IMG/VR virus record: IMGVR_UViG_3300006805_000089
Coordinates: 1-32,587 of that record
Source: a virus
Reading direction: 5' to 3' (one strand)
DNA: 32,587 nt
Made by a program: the position numbers and the translations under genes. This document shows, piece by piece, positions 8,365-32,177 of the stretch. The notes below the pieces were generated by a model that saw only the letters and a list, made by a program, of their open reading frames with translations, searched no databases and was not told the origin of the DNA. Every line of letters starts with the position of its first letter. Position 1 is the stretch's first letter.

Positions 8365-9207
8365 TCAGCCGATCAGCTTTGCGAGCGTCTTCGGGCCGAC
8401 GATCCCGTCCGGCGTCAAGCCGTTCGCTGTTTGCCACGCCTTGACGACGCGCTCCGTCCCCGGGCCGAAATCACCGTCTGCGGCGACGCCCAGAGCCTGC
8501 TGCACGCGCTTGACGAGCTCGCCCTTGCTACCGATGCGCAGCGTCTCGCTATGCGCTGTGGAGCCCGCTGCGGGCGCTGGTGCGGATCCGTCCAAGATCT
8601 TGAGAGCGCGGAGGAAGTGCGCGCGCCGATCGTCTAGGCCGATCGTGCCCCCGTTGACGAGCTTCGTCATCCGAACGATGTCCCCAGTGTCGCAGGCTTC
8701 TTCGTTGATCTTCCGACTGTTCCAATACCAGCACGCGCTCTCGAGCGCGCCGCGCTTGGTCTGAACGTAGTCGATGACCTCCTCTGCCGTGAGCCCGATC
8801 GTCTTCCCGAAGGCGGTGTAATTGTCGCGCCCGGTAAGTTGGATCGCGCCGCGCCCTCGGAAGCGATAACCGTCCCCCGAGGCGGTGTCTCCGTTGCCCA
8901 TGCGCGAAGCGTATACGATATTCGCAATCTTCTCGGGCTGCTTCGCATAGTCTGCGGCGTTGCGCCCAGCGTTCGCGAAATATTTGGGGAAGATCTTGTC
9001 GAGCGTCTCGGCGCGGTAGTGCAGGTTCTCCTCGAGCGTTTTTAGCCCTGCGCTCTCATGGCCGATTTGAGCGAAGAAACCAGCGATCCGGTGCGGCGTC
9101 GTGATCTGATACTTGGGCAGGATCTCGAGTGCGGCGTCGGCCCATGCCTCGGCCTCCGGGTTGCCGTGCAAGAGCTCGATGATCTTCGATCGGTCGAGCG
9201 CGCTCAT
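8365..9207 (-). CDS. Endolysin: GH19 chitinase-like muramidase with C-terminal peptidoglycan-binding domain
   Basis: The 280-aa protein has a GH19-type lysozyme domain (about residues 1-205). Its catalytic region is FAQIGHESAGLKTLEENL, with E51 the probable general acid and a second glutamate near 59-60; the substrate-cleft signature FRGRGAIQLTGRDNY follows. Residues 215-280 are a PG_binding_1 domain (IGSKGELVKRVQQALG, DGDFGPGTERVVKAWQ, LTPDGIVGPKTLAKL). No signal peptide is visible, so it needs a holin to reach the wall. It is the last gene of the right arm and starts in an ATGA overlap with the 53-aa gene, next to the holin-like gene at 9362-9628. Confidence 0.92.
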   Translation of the reverse strand: MSALDRSKIIELLHGNPEAEAWADAALEILPKYQITTPHRIAGFFAQIGHESAGLKTLEENLHYRAETLDKIFPKYFANAGRNAADYAKQPEKIANIVYASRMGNGDTASGDGYRFRGRGAIQLTGRDNYTAFGKTIGLTAEEVIDYVQTKRGALESACWYWNSRKINEEACDTGDIVRMTKLVNGGTIGLDDRRAHFLRALKILDGSAPAPAAGSTAHSETLRIGSKGELVKRVQQALGVAADGDFGPGTERVVKAWQTANGLTPDGIVGPKTLAKLIG

Positions 9208-9365
9208 TTAATCACCTTCTTGAGCATATCCACCGGGCTGTCGATCGCCGCCGACTTTATCATATCCTCGACTTTCGGCGGGAGATCCACCTGATCGAGG
9301 ACGGTGTCGACGATCTTCTCCTTCACTTTGCGCCCTATGAGCGCGCCTACGAGCTTTCCGATCAT
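9204..9365 (-). CDS. 53-aa amphipathic protein in the lysis region
   Basis: This short gene overlaps both neighbours by ATGA: its start overlaps the stop of the holin-like gene and its stop overlaps the endolysin start, so it is almost certainly translated. The sequence MIGKLVGALIGRKVKEKI begins an amphipathic helix, followed by VLDQVDLPPKVEDMI and a lysine-rich C-terminus (DMLKKVIK). It has no full membrane span. It may support lysis timing or attach to the membrane face, but no family is recognised. Confidence 0.75.
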   Translation of the reverse strand: MIGKLVGALIGRKVKEKIVDTVLDQVDLPPKVEDMIKSAAIDSPVDMLKKVIK

Positions 9366-9628
9366 TCTGAGCCCTCCTCGGTCTCTTGTTTGCGGTTGTT
9401 CGATGCTGCGAGCACGCCGCCCAGAGCGCCGACGATAAACGAGGCGATCGGGGTCAAGAGCTCGAAGAACTTGCGGTCGTTCTCGCTCGACGCGCCCATA
9501 GGCTGCGTCACGAAGATCAGCGAGTAAAGGATCGAGAAGATCGTCCCGCCGAGGATCAAGGTCAGCGTGACGCCGATAAAATAGCGGAGCTTCGCCTCCA
9601 TCAGGTCTGCGTCGTTTTTATTGGGCAA
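9362..9628 (-). CDS. Two-helix membrane protein, holin candidate
   Basis: The 88-aa protein has transmembrane helices at about residues 15-40 (YFIGVTLTLILGGTIFSILY and on) and 57-77 (LLTPIASFIVGALGGVLAA), with a charged C-terminus (NNRKQETEEGSE), typical of class II holins. FELLTPIASFIVGALGGV is a pattern I associate with small membrane proteins near lysis genes in marine phages. The TTG start at 9628 has GAGG eight bases upstream and overlaps the previous gene; ATG at 9601 is an alternative. It sits two genes upstream of the endolysin, which fits a holin, but it also belongs to the exported-protein block and may have another job there. Confidence 0.65.
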   Translation of the reverse strand: MPNKNDADLMEAKLRYFIGVTLTLILGGTIFSILYSLIFVTQPMGASSENDRKFFELLTPIASFIVGALGGVLAASNNRKQETEEGSE

Positions 9629-9818
9629 TGTCTTGTCCTCCTATCAGGTCGCTCGTGCACGACTTGAGAGCGGTGCACATTGGCGGGTTGCATTCAGGCG
9701 CGGACCAGCGCGCCGGATCTTGGCACGGGTAACGATAGAACCCATCTGCGGAAAAGTAGAAGATCGCGACGATAGCGGCGGCGAAGACCAGCCAGAGCAC
9801 TCTCTCAAGTTTTAGCAT
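9618..9818 (-). CDS. 66-aa membrane-anchored cysteine-containing protein
   Basis: It starts at the ATG at 9818 behind AAGGGA. One N-terminal membrane helix (VLWLVFAAAIVAIFYFSA) is followed by an external segment with four cysteines: RYPCQDPARW, PECNPP, MCTAL, SCTSDL. I have seen YPCQDPxxWxxPEC-type proteins in other marine phages near tail and lysis genes, without known function. The cysteines suggest disulphides in the periplasm. It overlaps the holin-like gene by 11 nt and is part of the 9362-13245 block. Confidence 0.7.
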   Translation of the reverse strand: MLKLERVLWLVFAAAIVAIFYFSADGFYRYPCQDPARWSAPECNPPMCTALKSCTSDLIGGQDIAQ

Positions 9819-9829
9819 TCCCTTATCCC

Positions 9830-10321
9830 CTATTGCGCGAGCGGGTTGTCTAGAGCCCGCTGCAATCTTCCATTTAGTCGGTCTTCGAGCTCTTTCATAT
9901 CTTGGTCTTGCGACATTCGGAGCTGGTCGCGCCGGGTCTCGAACCGCTTCTCGGCGTCGTCGATCAAGGTGCGGACCTTCTCTTCGTTTGTTCTGACGGC
10001 ATCTTCGGCCCGGTCGACCTGCTTCTCGAGCTGGATTATATCGTCCTTCAAGCCGTTCTTGATGTCGCGCGCGTAATCGAGCGCCTCTTGGACCTTGGCG
10101 TCCATGATCTCCATCTGCTGTTGATAGGCCCCAAGATCCATGCCCGCGACCTCTTCGACCTTCTGATACATCACGAACCCGCCATAGAGCGTGCCGCATA
10201 CGGTGGACAAAAGCGCGACGGCGGCGGCGATAGTCGCAGGCGTCATCCGCAGGCCGAGGACGGTGACCCCTTTGTCCTTTAGCCCTTCGATCTCCTCGAG
10301 CGCCTCGCCAAGATCCGTCAT
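9830..10321 (-). CDS. Membrane protein with long coiled coil (163 aa)
   Basis: It starts in an ATGA overlap with the upstream gene. Residues 1-20 are acidic, residues about 26-50 form one membrane helix (TPATIAAAVALLSTVCGTLY), and residues 55-163 are a long charged coiled coil ending RLQRALDNPLAQ. I know the pattern (GLRMTPATIAAA, coiled coil, RALDNPLA end) from uncharacterised phage proteins annotated as membrane or coil-containing. The topology suggests a membrane-anchored stalk. Possible roles include a spanin-like or scaffold component of the exported block; nothing shows enzymatic activity. Confidence 0.8.
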   Translation of the reverse strand: MTDLGEALEEIEGLKDKGVTVLGLRMTPATIAAAVALLSTVCGTLYGGFVMYQKVEEVAGMDLGAYQQQMEIMDAKVQEALDYARDIKNGLKDDIIQLEKQVDRAEDAVRTNEEKVRTLIDDAEKRFETRRDQLRMSQDQDMKELEDRLNGRLQRALDNPLAQ

Positions 10322-10722
10322 GGCTCGAAATCCATCTGCTCGTCTTGGAGCGCCTTCATCGCCTCGAGCTCTGCTTGGAGCTGTTGGATCTCGAGCCGCC
10401 GCTGTTGCAATTCGAGCAGATAGAGCTGGTCGCAATCAATTCGAGACTTGGGCGCGTTGAGCGGGATCACGATCCGCGCGAAGATCCCGAGGTCCTTTGT
10501 CTGCGGCGCTAGATCAGAGCCGCCAAGATTGTTGACACCGCCGAGCACGCCGACCTCGAGGTTCGTGCTCCCGCCGATCGCCATCGAACAGTCCAGATCC
10601 CCAGCGCGGAAACTATCACTTTGATAGGTCAAGGACGTCGAGGGGAGCTGCAATGCCAGCGAGGTGCTGTCCGCCTGCGCGGCCCCTCCTATCATCGCCA
10701 AGATCAGCGCGAGCCGCTTCAT
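10318..10722 (-). CDS. Exported protein with beta-rich domain and C-terminal coiled coil (134 aa)
   Basis: An N-terminal signal peptide (KRLALILAMIGGAAQA, cleavage near residue 17) is followed by a beta-rich, glycine/serine-rich domain (LALQLPSTSLTYQSDSF, CSMAIGGSTNLEVGVLGG, KDLGIFARIVIPL). Two cysteines (CSMA and DCDQL) could form a disulphide. From about residue 98 a leucine/glutamine coiled coil (LELQQRRLEIQQLQAELEAM) ends the protein. It is coupled by ATGA overlaps to both neighbours. The family is unknown to me; it looks like a secreted structural component rather than an enzyme. Confidence 0.78.
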   Translation of the reverse strand: MKRLALILAMIGGAAQADSTSLALQLPSTSLTYQSDSFRAGDLDCSMAIGGSTNLEVGVLGGVNNLGGSDLAPQTKDLGIFARIVIPLNAPKSRIDCDQLYLLELQQRRLEIQQLQAELEAMKALQDEQMDFEP

Positions 10723-11102
10723 GCGCGCTCTCCATCGAGCCGGGAGCAGATCCGAGACGAGATGATTGCGTTATCCTCCTGCCCAGCTCGAAGCATCGAG
10801 GTGGTGCAGACGTAGACGACGCGCGCCATGTCGTCCTCCCTGATGTAGATCTCGAAGTCCTGCCTGCCTCCCGGGGGGACGTGCATAACGCGCTGGGCCG
10901 AGGCGAAGACGATCGGGTTCATCTCGGCATCGAGCACGCTGATCGCGTAATACTCGACGTCATCTCGCGCGTTAAAGAGTGACAGATCGGCCTGCATGAT
11001 CTGCGCCATCGCCGATTGATGGAGCTTTGGATATGCCGGTGTCATCTCGTGCGCGCCCGCGCCCGTGGCAAACAAGATCAGGGCTGCGGCGGTCCGTTTC
11101 AT
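10719..11102 (-). CDS. Exported PapD-like (periplasmic chaperone N-domain-like) protein (127 aa)
   Basis: A signal peptide (KRTAAALILFATGAGA) precedes a domain whose strand pattern resembles the first Ig-like domain of pilus chaperones: ADLSLFNARDDVEYYAISVL (N-x-x-D, paired beta strands), NPIVFAS, then MHVPPGGRQDFEIYI and ARVVYVC, where PapD-like proteins have PPG-type turns before the donor strand. The second chaperone domain is absent and there is no usher gene, so it would be a minimal or divergent relative. It directly follows the pilin-like gene (ATGA overlap). The resemblance is by eye only. Confidence 0.75.
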   Translation of the reverse strand: MKRTAAALILFATGAGAHEMTPAYPKLHQSAMAQIMQADLSLFNARDDVEYYAISVLDAEMNPIVFASAQRVMHVPPGGRQDFEIYIREDDMARVVYVCTTSMLRAGQEDNAIISSRICSRLDGERA

Positions 11103-11593
11103 TTTGCGATACAGTCCGCTTGAATGACGGCGCGATAGGTTCCGGCGGGGAAGGCTTTGTTATAGCCATATTCTGCCGCGCTATCGACCTTGAACCATGT
11201 CGTCCCCGCGACGGTCAGATCGAACTCGGTCGTCGCATCATACTCGACCTTCGCCGCATCATAGGCCGACATCTGCGCGCTCGATACGCTCGAGACCGAC
11301 GCGCCCCCAGACCATGCGACGGTGTCGGTCAAGGTCGGGCTGGTCGAGAAGGCTGTCGGGTGCGTGATGCGCGCGATGTAGTAGCCCGCCAGCGCCACGT
11401 CGTAGCGGATGATCGGCGTCACGCCGCCGTCCGCTGCCAGCGCGCTTAACTTGTCCGCCGTCGGGTTGCCGTAAACGCCGGTGCGATCGGTGCGGATGAT
11501 GCACTTGGCCTGAACATTGCCTTCGATCTGGACGCCCTCGGCCAGCGCCATGTGCGGCAAGACGACCAAAAGAGCGATTGCGAGGTGTTTCAT
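11099..11593 (-). CDS. Exported pilin-like beta protein (164 aa)
   Basis: A clear signal peptide (KHLAIALLVVLPHMALA) precedes a beta-rich secreted domain. It begins EGVQIEGNVQAKCIIRTD and ends AGTYRAVIQADCIAK; the arrangement of one cysteine in an early strand and one in the last strand, with a GTYxAxIxA final strand, resembles fimbrial subunits (CS1 or spore-coat-U/type 1 pilin classes). The middle has repeated Thr/Ser-rich strands and WFKVDSAAEYGYNKAFPAG. It is followed immediately by the PapD-like gene, as pilins often are by chaperones. No usher is visible, so the similarity may be convergent. Function unknown. Confidence 0.75.
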   Translation of the reverse strand: MKHLAIALLVVLPHMALAEGVQIEGNVQAKCIIRTDRTGVYGNPTADKLSALAADGGVTPIIRYDVALAGYYIARITHPTAFSTSPTLTDTVAWSGGASVSSVSSAQMSAYDAAKVEYDATTEFDLTVAGTTWFKVDSAAEYGYNKAFPAGTYRAVIQADCIAK

Positions 11594-11604
11594 CTGCGCG
11601 TCTC

Positions 11605-12474
11605 CTATTGATACTGCGAGCCGATCAGTTGCTCGTGCAGCACTTGTTGAGCTAGGCCATTCCGTAGCCCGCGCTTGTTTTCTGGGATCTTCCCGTCGAC
11701 GAGCATGGGCGCGTCCGCATAAGATCCGCCCTCTAACTGCGCGGCGTAATAGACGGCCATGTCGGAAGTATAACCCATCGAGGCGATAATAGCATCCTGA
11801 GAAATCCCGTCGGCCAAGGCGAGCGCGTTCTTCGATGCGGCGAGCCCGCGCTCGAGCCGCGCCTTGCGTTTTTTATCGTCGCTCCGGTCTTCGTCGGCGG
11901 TCTCTTCGTTCTGATATTCTGCATCCGTTTTCGCGCTCGCGATCCGATAGGCGTCATCCTCTAAGGCGTCGTAGGTTGCTTGCTCCTCAATAGTCACCGG
12001 CGTCGCGGGGGGAACGTAGCCATCGCACGACGGGCTCGACTGCGGATTGGCGCATTCATCGACCCGGTAGGCGTAGATCACCGAGGCGTCCGAGATCGAG
12101 CCCTCGCCCTCGAGCTCGATGGATCCGATGCCCCAGTATTCGAGCGGGATGTTCGGCACGGGGACGCCCTTGGTGATCGTGTTCCCCGCGATGCCCGACC
12201 AGTCGTCGGTCTCGCGGAAGATGTAACCGGTCCCCAGCGCGTTCTCGTTCTGCACATGGACCAGCGCGTCCGCCGCCGGATCTTTGTCGATCGTGTATTG
12301 ATAAAAGACGCCGCTGATGTCCAAGCCCGGGACGTTTGGAACGACGTTACTCATGGCCCACGAGAGCGCGTCCGCTGCGGCGTTGCCGGTCGATCCGTAG
12401 GTGTAAGGATCAGATTGCGAGGAGGAGCCCCAGAACGCCAAGCAGAGCGCCCAGACCCATCTTTGTTTTGCCAT
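11605..12474 (-). CDS. Exported conserved phage protein (289 aa)
   Basis: The N-terminus MAKQRWVWALCLAFWGSSS is a signal peptide. The first half contains VVPNVPGLDISGV, VQNENALGTGYIFRETDD, GNTITKGVPVPNIPLEYW and GEGSISDASVIYAYR, segments I recognise from uncharacterised proteins in marine phages. Two cysteines bracket NPQSSPS. The second half is charged helix (EDRSDDKKRKARLERGLAAS) and an Ala/Gly-rich end. The ATG has AGGGG about nine bases upstream and lies inside the end of the previous gene (65-nt overlap). No domain of known function is seen. Confidence 0.8.
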   Translation of the reverse strand: MAKQRWVWALCLAFWGSSSQSDPYTYGSTGNAAADALSWAMSNVVPNVPGLDISGVFYQYTIDKDPAADALVHVQNENALGTGYIFRETDDWSGIAGNTITKGVPVPNIPLEYWGIGSIELEGEGSISDASVIYAYRVDECANPQSSPSCDGYVPPATPVTIEEQATYDALEDDAYRIASAKTDAEYQNEETADEDRSDDKKRKARLERGLAASKNALALADGISQDAIIASMGYTSDMAVYYAAQLEGGSYADAPMLVDGKIPENKRGLRNGLAQQVLHEQLIGSQYQ

Positions 12475-13006
12475 CGAGATGTCCCCTCGGGTTGCGATCA
12501 GCGCGCTCGGGATCCGCCTCCCACGCCGCCTTTGCCTCCTCGCCGATCATGCCGTCGTAGGGGCAAGGCGTCCCCGCATCGAGCATCGACTGAAAGACGC
12601 GCTCGTCTTGGCACATGGTCGAGACCGCTGCGACCTTCATCCCCATATCGTAGAGCGCCTTTGCGTTCTTGAGCATCTCGCAATTCATGTCGCGCGTCGT
12701 TTTGCCTGCCGATAGACCGAGGATCTGCGTCTGGACGGCGGCGGAGACCCCCACGGTGCAGATGTCATTCCCCGCGCCCGCGCTGAACTGCGGCGAAATA
12801 GCGGACGGCGGCGGGGAGATCAAGGTCGTCGTCATCTCGCCCGTCGTATTGACCGACCCGTCGGATCCCGACCATGTGCAGATGTAGCCCTCCGGGCACT
12901 CGACATCCGGAACCGTCTGAGAGTGCGCGAGAGCTGCGGCAAAAAGAAAACCCAAGACAAGGATGCAGATCACGATGACCTGATCTTTGTCTAGCTTGAT
13001 CTTCAT
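12410..13006 (-). CDS. Exported, twice-anchored cysteine-rich phage protein (198 aa)
   Basis: An N-terminal hydrophobic helix (VIVICILVLGFLFAAALAHS) is either a signal peptide or anchor. The outside domain has six or more cysteines (VECPEGYICTW, NDICTVG, DMNCEML, TMCQDERVF, GTPCPYDGMIG) and a helical core (AAVQTQILGLSAGKTTRDMN, LYDMGMKVAAVSTM). It ends in a C-terminal membrane helix (GLGALLGVLGLLLAI). The cysteine-containing core is one I know from uncharacterised phage proteins. Its last 65 nt also encode the signal peptide of the next gene in another frame. Starts by ATGA overlap. Confidence 0.8.
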   Translation of the reverse strand: MKIKLDKDQVIVICILVLGFLFAAALAHSQTVPDVECPEGYICTWSGSDGSVNTTGEMTTTLISPPPSAISPQFSAGAGNDICTVGVSAAVQTQILGLSAGKTTRDMNCEMLKNAKALYDMGMKVAAVSTMCQDERVFQSMLDAGTPCPYDGMIGEEAKAAWEADPERADRNPRGHLDGKTKMGLGALLGVLGLLLAI

Positions 13007-13245
13007 TTAGTGAGCCGATCAAGGAGCCGCTCGATCTTCGCATCGAGGTTGTCGATCCGAGAGATCACGCGGTTAAAGTCGGTGTGCATATCGACGCGCG
13101 TCACATAGTCGCGCGCCAGCTCTTCGCGGGTCTTGTTGAGGAGGATCTGTTGCCGTTGCAACTCGGCATAGAACGCCTTGAGAATGAACCCAGAGACGCC
13201 GAGCGCGGCGGTCAGGATCCCGCTCCATATCATCTCCGGGCTCAT
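13003..13245 (-). CDS. Small membrane protein with coiled coil (80 aa)
   Basis: One membrane helix (MIWSGILTAALGVSGFILKAF) is followed by a charged coiled coil (LQRQQILLNKTREELARDYV, RVISRIDNLDAKIERLLDRL). LLNKTREELARDYVTR is typical of small phage proteins in lysis regions. I chose the ATG at 13245 because GGAGG is seven bases upstream; GTG at 13251 is less well spaced. It could be a holin accessory or i-spanin-like protein; it is the first gene of the exported/membrane block after the tail fibre chaperone. Confidence 0.75.
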   Translation of the reverse strand: MSPEMIWSGILTAALGVSGFILKAFYAELQRQQILLNKTREELARDYVTRVDMHTDFNRVISRIDNLDAKIERLLDRLTK

Positions 13246-13247
13246 GT

Positions 13248-13622
13248 TCACGCCTCCGGATAGGGGAAGCGTGCTTTGATCTCTGCGATCTTAGCGAGCC
13301 ACTCGTCCGTCGTCGCTTCTTCGCGCTGGGATTTGAAGAACAGCGGGTCGGCTTCTGTCTTGTAGGCTTCTGCACGGGCTGCTCGTTGCATTTCAATCGT
13401 TAATGCCGGTTCAGGAAGTGGCTCAGGTTCAACTGGGTCTGGGATTTCCACAACAACCCATGATCCAGATACCCATTGCGCCAACTGTTTTTCACCAAGT
13501 GATGGTGGAGGCTCAGTGACGCAACCAGCGGGAATCAGCCAGTTGCCTTGATCAAGCGGGTCTGGATCAGCCATAGTCTGACCGACATAAAAGCCTTGGT
13601 GATCTGTCTGGTATACTTGCAT
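13248..13622 (-). CDS. Tail fibre chaperone-like protein (Tfa-like, 124 aa)
   Basis: It starts at the ATG at 13622 behind GAGG and overlaps the fibre gene's end. The N-terminus (YQTDHQGFYVGQTMADPDPL and NWLIPAGCV) is the standard opening of tail fibre assembly or tip proteins that fold the receptor-binding end of the adjacent fibre. A proline-rich stretch (VEPEPLPEPALT) follows, and a helical C-terminus (DEWLAKIAEIKARFPYPEA). The DNA of most of the gene is visibly lower in G+C than neighbouring genes, like the fibre's 3' end, while the last 80 bases return to the phage norm, suggesting a swapped cassette. Confidence 0.75.
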   Translation of the reverse strand: MQVYQTDHQGFYVGQTMADPDPLDQGNWLIPAGCVTEPPPSLGEKQLAQWVSGSWVVVEIPDPVEPEPLPEPALTIEMQRAARAEAYKTEADPLFFKSQREEATTDEWLAKIAEIKARFPYPEA

Positions 13623-29881: not shown

Positions 29882-31794
29882 CTCGTCACCTTCTTGTCCA
29901 GTTTGCGGTAAATCTCCAGCAATGCCGGATGAATGCGGAAATGCTCGCTCTCTGGCATCCCCATGTAGATCGCGAAGGTCTCCGCGATATACTCTTTGTC
30001 GTTTGTGTTTCCGTAGACCGAGAGAAGCAGATCCCACCCAGTGCTGCGCGGCCTCTCGCGCAAAAGAAATGCGTCGAGCTCCGGCCCGATGCGGCTGTTT
30101 TGCAAATGGATGTAGTGCCCGTATTCGTGATAGACGGTCGAGCGCACCCTGAACGCGCTATCGAGCGAGGTGCTGTCCACGCACCAGTTATAAGGCTTGC
30201 CGCCCAGCGCATCCATCTGCTTGACGCGTTCGCGCACGCGCGGGTCAATCACGATCCCCGGCTTTGGACTAGCCAACGCGGCGTCGCGTTCAGCAATGTA
30301 ACGCGCAGCACTTCTTTTTTCGCGTGCTGCTAATTCCTCCACGCCTTCCCCAAAACCAGAAGCGGGGATGTGGAACATCCCCCTGTTTCCGGTTGCCCCA
30401 TCTGTGACCTGATACATCGCCGCAAGTGCGCGCCTGTTGACCTTAGCCCGCGCATAGAACCGCTTGGCATATCCGAACGCGGCAAGCGGCGAGAGCCCGA
30501 ACCGCTCGGTGACCTCTTGCATGGCAGGAACCGCGACGTTCAACGCTGCTAGGGTTGTCCCTTTGAGGTCCACCCTACCAGCGACGCCGCTCGTCCTTAC
30601 ATAATCCTCGATCTTTGCTAAAGATTTGAGCGGAGTGTAGCTCTCATAAGCGAACGCCGGAGCAGGCGTTGCGGGCCCAGCACTCCGCCGCTCTGCATCC
30701 GAGATCACCGGCGCGGGAGGAGGTGCGCTGGGAACCGGACGCGGTGGCGGCGGAGGTGGCGCGACGACCGCTCCCGGGGAGGACGGGAGCAGACCGCGAG
30801 AGATGATGCGCGCGAAGACCGCGCACCTGCATTGGATCGTGTTCGCTGCGAGCGCGCTGGGATCGCCGGGGTAGAGGATCGGCCCGAGGGGGCTCGAGAA
30901 GGTCTCGTTCTGCCCGACGCCCTTCGGGTTCATCGCGGGGATCTGCAAGTGCGCGTTGCGGACGTGCGCGTCGCCGGTGTGGATCCACGTCCGGCGGACC
31001 TGCCGAGCGTCGATCTGCCCCTTGTTTATCATGTCTTGGAAGAGCTCCCACTGTGCGCCCTGCACGGCGCGGATGCTCTCGGTGCGCGCGATGACGTTCG
31101 CCCGATATTTGACATAACGGTCGCGATACCGGTCCACCAGAGACCGCACCTGTGCGTCGGTGAGCGCCTTGTCGTTGTTGATCGCCCGCGCCACCGTCGG
31201 GTCGCTGCGCCGGTCGCGGAGCTTGCGATCAAGCACCTCGGGGTCGAGCGCGCGCAGCATCCTCTCGTAATTGTTGACCGCCGCCTCTTGGCGCTGCGTC
31301 AGCCCGATCGAGCCCCTGATCCGGCGCGCGATTGCGAACGGGTCGTCGCCTGCGGTGAGCCCAGATTGCAGCACCTGCCGGATCGTGTCGCGCGTCGTCT
31401 GGTCGATCTCGCGGATCCGCGTCGAGGTCATGGTCTGGGCGAACTGCTCGAGGCGCGGGTTCAGCCCGACGCGGATCTCGAAGTCCTCTTGCGCGCCGTT
31501 TACGACGCCTTGCGTCTCGCTTGTCGCCTTCGTCCCAGCGATGACGGCCTGCTCGATTGCTTTTCCGTAGGGTTGCCACTCGGTCGACGTGAAGTGCCCG
31601 GAGAAGGCGTTCTCGAGCGAGGTGAAGTCGCGCCGCTCGATGAGCTGCGCGATCTTCTCTGCCGGAACGCGGAGCCGGATCGTCTCGATCGCCTGAATAA
31701 AGGCGCTCGCGATCTTCGGATCCATGCCCTCCGCTGCCCGCAAGAAGACGGCCACGGCGTCGGAGGCTGTCATCTTGCGGATCGCGATGTTCAT
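29878..31794 (-). CDS. MuF-domain minor head protein fused to metallopeptidase-like C-terminal domain
   Basis: Residues about 115-330 of this 638-aa protein form a MuF/SPP1 gp7-like domain (RANVIARTESIRAVQGAQWE, RRTWIHTGDAHVRNAH and the closing LAANTIQCRCAVF). A proline-rich linker (340-380: APPPPPPRPVPSAPP) joins it to a C-terminal domain with HEYGH (556-560) and a downstream glutamate in EYIAETFAIY (E605), the gluzincin-like zinc site. MuF proteins are packaged into virions and in some temperate phages carry toxins or effectors at the C-terminus. The 3' part of the gene (below about 30650) has visibly lower G+C, as if acquired separately. It lies in the usual place after the portal gene. 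The enzymatic prediction is by motif only. Confidence 0.88.
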   Translation of the reverse strand: MNIAIRKMTASDAVAVFLRAAEGMDPKIASAFIQAIETIRLRVPAEKIAQLIERRDFTSLENAFSGHFTSTEWQPYGKAIEQAVIAGTKATSETQGVVNGAQEDFEIRVGLNPRLEQFAQTMTSTRIREIDQTTRDTIRQVLQSGLTAGDDPFAIARRIRGSIGLTQRQEAAVNNYERMLRALDPEVLDRKLRDRRSDPTVARAINNDKALTDAQVRSLVDRYRDRYVKYRANVIARTESIRAVQGAQWELFQDMINKGQIDARQVRRTWIHTGDAHVRNAHLQIPAMNPKGVGQNETFSSPLGPILYPGDPSALAANTIQCRCAVFARIISRGLLPSSPGAVVAPPPPPPRPVPSAPPPAPVISDAERRSAGPATPAPAFAYESYTPLKSLAKIEDYVRTSGVAGRVDLKGTTLAALNVAVPAMQEVTERFGLSPLAAFGYAKRFYARAKVNRRALAAMYQVTDGATGNRGMFHIPASGFGEGVEELAAREKRSAARYIAERDAALASPKPGIVIDPRVRERVKQMDALGGKPYNWCVDSTSLDSAFRVRSTVYHEYGHYIHLQNSRIGPELDAFLLRERPRSTGWDLLLSVYGNTNDKEYIAETFAIYMGMPESEHFRIHPALLEIYRKLDKKVTR

Positions 31795-32177
31795 GCGGCG
31801 ACGTCCAGAGCTAGGAACGAGGGGGTCTCGGCGGGGAGCTTCTGCTTAAACTCGGTGTAAACCTGACGCAGCGGCGCTTCTCCGGGGAAGAGGTCGAACG
31901 GTTGCCGGATCCCGTCGAGCAGGACGCGCACATAATCGTCTCCGAACCGCTGCATCGAGGTGATCGCCGAGGGCCGGATCCAGCGCGCCGCGCTCATCTC
32001 GACGAAGTCGCGCGCGAAGGCGTCGGTCTCGATGTAATCCTGCCCGTTCGTGACGGGGATCTGCAAGCCGGGGACGTGCAGGATCATCGTCTTGCCGGAC
32101 ATCGACGCCTCGATCGCGTAGATGTTCCAGATGTCGATGTCGATCCAGATGTCGCGGGGGTAGACTTGGAACCTCAC
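31791..32177 (-). CDS. Hypothetical head-module protein (128 aa)
   Basis: Not recognised. It starts with GTG in a GTGA overlap with the portal stop and ends in an ATGA overlap with the MuF gene. The protein has a beta-rich N-terminal part (RFQVYPRDIWIDIDIWNIYA, MILHVPGLQIPVTNGQDYI) and ends DVAA. Located between portal and MuF genes, it is probably a small head or portal-associated protein. Confidence 0.7.
   Translation of the reverse strand: MRFQVYPRDIWIDIDIWNIYAIEASMSGKTMILHVPGLQIPVTNGQDYIETDAFARDFVEMSAARWIRPSAITSMQRFGDDYVRVLLDGIRQPFDLFPGEAPLRQVYTEFKQKLPAETPSFLALDVAA

Follow-up and report, generated by a model that had tools for sequence, protein, structure and literature searches.

The chaperone–usher pathway (FimC/FimA, PapD/PapA, Caf1M/Caf1, Csu) combines a secreted, pilin-like immunoglobulin (Ig) subunit bearing an N-terminal strand with a PapD-type chaperone encoded by an adjacent gene. 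Phage-encoded exported genes have likewise been proposed to form a surface structure in the pelagiphage curli/type VIII secretion cluster, and three papers concern phage curli genes (PMC9599517, PMC9004378, PMC7029224). Here, we describe a locus on a viral stretch of 32,587 nucleotides (IMG/VR record IMGVR_UViG_3300006805_000089, positions 1 to 32,587; hereafter the window), in which six minus-strand genes, B to G (9830–13006), encode exported or membrane proteins, including a predicted pilin-like subunit (D) directly followed by a predicted chaperone (E). The adjacent pair recalls the chaperone–usher pathway; in contrast to it, the chaperone consists of domain 1 only, an usher was not found, B, C, F, and G are additional partners, and the system is phage-borne. 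Vibrio phage relatives of D, E, and F form three PHROG families (phrog_25895, phrog_25455, and phrog_37374), all labelled as of unknown function, and we found no prior link of any of them to pilins or chaperones. No description of the block or of the D-E-F trio was found in the available parts of the literature searched, whose scope lay outside subscription journals and preprints, and a term search of the accessible text of PMC9700779, on phage Kp24 (FBKp24), yielded no occurrence. We consider it about evenly balanced whether B–G constitute an operon from which the phage makes an exported chaperone–pilin system that builds an envelope structure independently of an usher.

Gene neighborhood analysis defines B–G as a conserved unit, with D-E-F as its widest-spread core. 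Viral contig stretches encoding relatives of D numbered 104 in a single-sequence scan with D and at least 590 with an alignment of 22 D proteins. B-C-D-E-F-G is complete, in order, and on one strand in 131 of the 151 D-bearing loci fetched; 18 of the other 20 end at a contig edge inside or just beside the block, and L075 and L124 have 1.6 and 0.36 kb remaining, without G. In the similar loci L073 and L074, G lies 2.3 kb after F, and the F–G gap reaches at least 300 bases in 10 of 141 loci. E follows D in 149 of the 151 (the remaining two are cut off by the contig end), and C is present in 151 of 158 loci. Nearly all loci were chosen for holding D, so these counts speak for the neighbors of D only; they also include contigs fetched twice (e.g., L050/L095, L077/L097, L013/L140, L023/L130, L024/L147, and L029/L148), and the profiles were iterated on the same loci that they count. 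The median ratio of nonsynonymous to synonymous substitution rates (dN/dS) against relatives is about 0.03–0.07 for the B–G genes, with dS saturated and only the direction safe (from 11 relatives for each gene, after exclusion of pairs in which dS was undefined; n = 11, 11, 9, 6, 4, and 5 for B to G). Same-order homologs in 131 loci together with the low dN/dS argue that B–G are not chance open frames. Genes A, H, I, and J, being rare (14, 27, 28, and 18 of 158 loci), fall outside the unit. An N-terminal hydrophobic segment is found in 148/151 D, 145/149 E, 142/145 F, and 132/141 G proteins, and at lower frequency in B (78/135) and C (101/141), perhaps through wrongly chosen start codons. A first-pass annotation of the window, made from its letters alone, had described an eight-gene block of exported and membrane proteins at 9362–13245 and had proposed a neighborhood survey as a check. 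Its description is otherwise accurate, and the survey upholds a conserved block of exported proteins; its gene count does not stand, as the region holds nine genes (A–I), the conserved unit comprises six, and H–K represent a lysis cassette present in a minority of relatives.

The strongest structural evidence comes from E (10719–11102, minus strand; 127 aa), a secreted protein predicted to be a single PapD-type domain, corresponding to domain 1 of the chaperones. Its AlphaFold2 model, built from 73 sequences, has a predicted local distance difference test (pLDDT) score of 87.7. A Foldseek search against the PDB returned 23 matches at E ≤ 0.001, of which 21, including all of ranks 1–18, came from chaperone–usher chaperone entries (FaeE, PapD, DraB, SafB, FimC, Caf1M, and SfaE), the other two being the VAP-A MSP domain and a FixG-related protein; chaperone or pilin status of matched chains was judged by entry title and length. 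VIA-align paired E residues 17–125 with FimC 1–116 (Z 10.6; root-mean-square deviation 2.9 over 102 residues). By length, a second chaperone domain is absent from the marine relatives of E (103–128 aa) and from those of four Vibrio phages (132–135 aa), the matched chaperone chains measuring 166–211 aa. The two invariant cysteines (Cys99/Cys119) sit on the last two strands, an F/G-strand pair that we take to recall that of the FGL chaperone Caf1M. Position 121 is basic in 73/73 sequences (K 51, R 22) and, judged from the end of the FimC alignment, lies near FimC K112, a residue with a role in chaperone function. The mature protein, as predicted by eye, begins with an invariant His (73/73), for which we know of no counterpart among classical chaperones; in several E-like proteins of jumbo phages, too, a His comes after the signal peptide. 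A copper site at this residue was considered, but the alignment shows no second invariant His.

D (11099–11593, minus strand; 164 aa) is predicted to be a secreted Ig-like sandwich that is closest, though weakly, to chaperone–usher pilins. Its AlphaFold2 model, built from 67 sequences, has a pLDDT of 91.8, and Foldseek ranks 1–6 are CfaB (three chains), the PapG pilin domain, FimF, and FimG, with a best E-value of 1.6e-3. A fold search of BFVD with D gave nothing at E ≤ 0.001 and a mixed list. Because the fold match is weak, the pilin reading of D leans on more than the fold, adding the features of its two termini. Residues 21–30 lie in no strand of the model (block mean pLDDT 75 versus 93–98 from residue 31 on) and are conserved about like the rest of the protein (mean majority frequency 0.68 versus 0.72). 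Within them, I23, G25, and V27 are fixed in at least 66 of the 67 rows, and a conserved stretch, V-P-I-x-G-x-V, precedes Cys31; this hydrophobic-x-Gly-x-Val spacing ahead of the first Cys presumably recalls the N-terminal strand of FimA-type pilins. We infer that the conserved, strand-less N-terminus of the modeled D would be like a donor strand and that its Ig fold would be incomplete. At the other end, D stops exactly three residues past its last Cys (Cys161 in the window) in 67/67 marine rows (the window plus 66 representatives of the 151) and 5/5 Vibrio phage rows, as expected if the C-terminus were a docking point. The first-pass annotation had likened 11099–11593 to a fimbrial subunit and 10719–11102 to the first domain of a PapD-type chaperone, with structure prediction as the way to check: the predictions bear out the chaperone likeness strongly and the pilin likeness weakly. 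The pair comes without two hallmarks of the classical pathway, namely the usher and the second chaperone domain.

The usher was sought with PF00577, for which an Escherichia coli control was positive. None of 40 block-bearing virus records, some of them fragments, gave a match over the cut-off (there was one 12-bit sub-threshold match with stops), and 11 whole records of trio-bearing phages gave no match. The large genes that precede D in Vibrio phages were considered as ushers and rejected, as Pfam scans of seven of them and of whole records yielded no usher match; the starts read have no obvious signal peptide, and the genes look like tail fibers, a likeness that no Pfam match confirms. Curli, considered since relatives of B occur in pelagiphages and phage-borne curli have been published, were also rejected: CsgG was over the cut-off in 0 of 24 records searched, in contrast to the pelagiphage curli cluster (an 11.5-bit sub-threshold match lies at 31522–31809 in the window, outside the block), and no Pfam curli match was found among the block proteins. 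A sequence-only search of solved structures with six queries (A1, A2, A3, A6, A8, and A10) returned nothing meaningful. A bacterial origin was considered as well. In genome contigs, a pattern scan, which misses relatives, recovered one contig of a Rhodobacteraceae metagenome-assembled genome (MAG), with B, C, and D at its end, plus one doubtful match. When 394 genomes of its family were searched by profile, D turned up in that MAG only, on five contigs (G040 C64, C76, C105, C121, and C174), as if several phages had been binned together. The three contigs read all carry BCDEFG; one has head genes and one a tail-fiber match, and the third may be of phage origin, a nucleotide-sugar epimerase being the only PHROG match among two proteins tried. 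Of 100 genomes in this candidate host family, 6 encode an usher, so that the phage might use one from its host.

Gene F (10318–10722, minus strand; 134 aa) encodes a secreted protein with conserved cysteines (C45 and C97) and a probably helical C-terminal segment, and it led from the marine contigs to named Vibrio phages (tblastn E 0.1; 2.1e-11 by profile to their PHROG family, phrog_37374). Vibrio phage Bennett has counterparts of D, E, and F in gp148-gp149-gp150 (4e-7, 3e-5, and 8e-16, E-values for a set of seven), which match phrog_25895, phrog_25455, and phrog_37374 at 1e-65 or better; E of the window matches phrog_25455 over residues 11–120, weakly (0.26). Bennett gp149 (L160:4615-5022) seems to be annotated 35 residues short, an upstream start yielding a signal peptide. 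The trio also occurs in pVp-1, K379, and 252E42.2, with two large fiber-like genes ahead and one small gene behind; with Bennett counted in, the small gene is lipoprotein-like in three of the four phages, and the K379 gene lacks a lipobox as annotated. Within a set of 20, the profile E-values were modest for E of K379 (0.0066) and for E and D of 252E42.2 (0.0028 and 0.0014), and in vB_VhaS-tm three genes in the same order align with the Vibrio phage trio. A tblastn search located D in 179 records of Vibrio phages; a 180th match, to Nostoc at E 9, is taken as chance, and some of the named phage records are GenBank/RefSeq duplicates. Once signal peptides are left out, hhalign connects marine and Vibrio phage D at 93.5% (2e-7), marine and Vibrio phage E at 33% (4.6e-4), and F among the marine, Vibrio, and jumbo groups at 97%, the highest of 36 cross-family control comparisons reaching 6.4% (E 0.0057). 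Seven large-phage loci (YC1, FBKp24, Miami, Eowyn, pEp_SNUABM_01, Vibrio 2.275.O, and one IMG/VR contig) have the order E-F-D, with a short, exported-looking two-Cys gene upstream of F and, downstream, an exported-looking gene with a Cys near the C-terminus. F is clear in these large Klebsiella, Erwinia, and Vibrio phages; their putative D and E are assigned by position, export signal, and Cys pattern only. Vibrio phage douglas 12A4 (L164:5001-5495) seemingly holds only an F fragment (query residues 66–109), beside a small lipoprotein-like gene, and D or E was not found among the four neighbors read.

The remaining members of the block can be traced outside it. B (12410–13006, minus strand; 198 aa; phrog_20531 at 7.9e-12) is exported by its N-terminal hydrophobic segment, has conserved cysteines (C83, C109, C132, and C148) and a hydrophobic C-terminal tail, and has relatives in pelagiphages and roseophages. 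G (9830–10321, minus strand; 163 aa) has one N-proximal hydrophobic segment, a probable transmembrane helix, together with a coiled-coil-like part and a conserved C-terminal NPL motif. In roseophages CRP-207 and CRP-810 and in the uncultured phage records MW202481 and MW202675, homologs of B and G flank secreted proteins other than C-D-E-F, without the trio, and the G homologs end in NPL or NPM; in the pelagiphages HTVC202P (gp24-26) and Mosig (202-200), only B scored, and G was recognized by eye. The genes labelled 'lysozyme' in CRP-207 (L083:3292-3873) and CRP-810 (L086:7213-7635) match the G profile, with a hydrophobic segment, a coiled-coil-like part, and the NPL end. In MW202675 (L085:614-4688), A, B, G, H, I, J, and K stand in the order of the window, with another secreted gene in place of C–F, a layout that suggests that C–F may be an exchangeable cassette; the marine block would then be C and the D-E-F trio placed in an older B–G frame. 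C (11605–12474, minus strand; 289 aa) has a putative signal peptide, conserved C141 and C150, and a conserved QY at its C-terminus, without a Pfam match or a PHROG match below 0.06. B and C overlap out of frame at 12410–12474, where one DNA stretch codes for both the hydrophobic tail of B and the putative signal peptide of C; both the overlap and the hydrophobic B tail are present in 135/135 loci.

In the window, a 32.6-kb virus record with PHROG matches to tape measure, minor tail protein, central tail fiber J, and major head protein families, genes A–I fill 9362–13251, all on the minus strand. Upstream lie fiber genes and a small gene, called a tail fiber chaperone in the first-pass annotation, whose relatives cluster with tail fiber assembly families. 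A (13003–13251, minus strand; 82 aa), with a hydrophobic N-terminus and a coiled-coil-like part (phrog_462 at 1.3e-9), adjoins the conserved unit from outside. On the other side, H (9618–9818, minus strand; 66 aa) is a Cys-rich protein with a probable transmembrane segment, in the adjacent lysis region, and I (9362–9628, minus strand; 88 aa), with two hydrophobic segments, is a holin-like candidate (phrog_25359, of unknown function, at 1.7e-12; phrog_9987, holin, at 0.19). J (9204–9365, minus strand) separates I from K (8365–9207, minus strand), a GH19 endolysin with a peptidoglycan-binding domain (phrog_181 at 1.8e-73, PF00182, and PF01471) that closes the lysis cassette.

Taking the observed conservation, gene order, and export signals, with no recognizable usher in the searched records, together with the modeled folds of D and E, we infer a donor-strand mechanism, including its partners, topology, timing, and surface role. 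In the periplasm, E would fold D and cap it by lending its own last strand (donor-strand complementation), and D, through its conserved N-terminal strand, would then be handed to a partner, which could be another D, C, or F. F, by its C-terminal helix, and B and G, by membrane anchors and coiled coil, may hold the product in the envelope, with C as the likeliest surface-exposed element. Most likely, the structure would alter the infected cell's surface, hiding receptors so that superinfection is hindered and progeny are not lost on debris. Such a surface change during infection fits best, given the export signals and the tail-fiber neighborhood, and receptor masking as its precise purpose is offered tentatively, at well below even confidence. 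The envelope-spanning or surface assembly envisaged in the first-pass annotation thus remains the best reading of the block.

Several points weigh against a chaperone–pilin system. The fold match of D is weak (E > 0.001; template modelling score about 0.35–0.5), and VIA-align gives it no chain at Z 8 or more, a MSCRAMM (best, Z 7.8) and integrin Ig domains leading the list. For E, VIA-align ranks 1–3 are chitosanase CsxA entries (Z 10.7), tied with FimC and followed by MSP/ASH domains, and an invariant Tyr of E lies near what we take, from alignment endpoints only, to be the place of the chaperone cleft Arg8. Mature-sequence hhalign does not tie jumbo-phage D and E to the marine proteins (0.2% and 1.4%); an 89% value for jumbo E came from alignments with signal peptides and was lost once these were removed. 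The ties of D and E to other Ig domains, along with the invariant N-terminal His of E, would also suit Ig-fold proteins that exchange no strand, such as members of a fixed secreted complex or a pair that binds carbohydrate or metal, and whose likeness to pilin and chaperone is topological only. We regard that as unlikely: E follows D in nearly all marine loci and again in Vibrio phages, D has a free, conserved N-terminus and a fixed C-terminus, and the F/G-strand Cys pair of E is presumably like that of Caf1M.

The other explanations, not all of which exclude the chaperone–pilin mechanism, concern what the product is for. A lysis accessory, with G acting like an inner-membrane spanin and the secreted proteins bridging to and disrupting the outer membrane, would account for the order in the window, where the block precedes a holin-like gene and the endolysin, and for that in Bennett and pVp-1, where D-E-F is followed by two small genes and then holin and endolysin. 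Of 130 complete loci, 35 have a member of an endolysin family (representative phrog_181) close to the block, downstream in 28 (the neighbor clusters include wrong-strand shadow frames, and the endolysin cluster alone was used), and an annotated cell wall hydrolase stands about 4.4 kb upstream of the trio in Vibrio phage 2.275.O. The hydrophobic segment of G and its weak coiled-coil-type matches would suit a spanin-like topology. However, an Rz-like spanin of its own (gp143) is annotated in Bennett at a distance of about 6 kb, no lipobox was seen by eye in B–F of the window, and YC1, FBKp24, Miami, Eowyn, and pEp_SNUABM_01 show no annotated lysis gene within 3.5–5 kb on each side, where most genes are 'hypothetical'. 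Because of the Bennett spanin and the stretches read in these large Klebsiella and Erwinia phages, we do not favor the outer-membrane lysis role raised in the first-pass annotation and judge it improbable. Less probable still is a virion decoration gained at lysis, a pilin-based fiber aiding adsorption: tail-fiber genes lie near the block in the window, large fiber-like genes near the trio in Vibrio phages, and an annotated tail fiber gene about 1.3 kb upstream of it in pEp_SNUABM_01, but the export signals of D, E, and F should take them out of the cytoplasm, where virions are assembled, and no annotated tail gene stands near the trio in YC1, FBKp24, Miami, or Eowyn. A host-aggregation device like the 'sibling capture' proposed for pelagiphage curli is very unlikely, the CsgG search of 24 records and the Pfam search of the block proteins speaking against it; in its favor, pelagiphages have relatives of B and, according to PMC9599517, PMC7029224, and PMC9004378, carry secretion genes for surface fibers.

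If the chaperone–pilin reading holds, phages would own a pilin–chaperone pair and build with it in the host envelope, dispensing with the pore on which the known pathway depends. This would inform how small a donor-strand assembly system can become, and 'hypothetical' genes of hundreds of viral contigs and of some 180 records of named Vibrio phages would gain a testable job. Vibrio phage Bennett would offer a cultured system for a question that an uncultured marine contig first raised. More broadly, and tentatively, tailed phages of unrelated groups may share a dedicated assembly system on the secretion side, comprising chaperone domain, pilin, and F, whose donor-strand-joined product forms in the host envelope without an usher; marine phages may have expanded it to six genes that make up an envelope-spanning machine. 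Such a system would be the chaperone–usher pathway's minimal relative, free of an usher, and would serve phages as a weapon or shield of a new kind.

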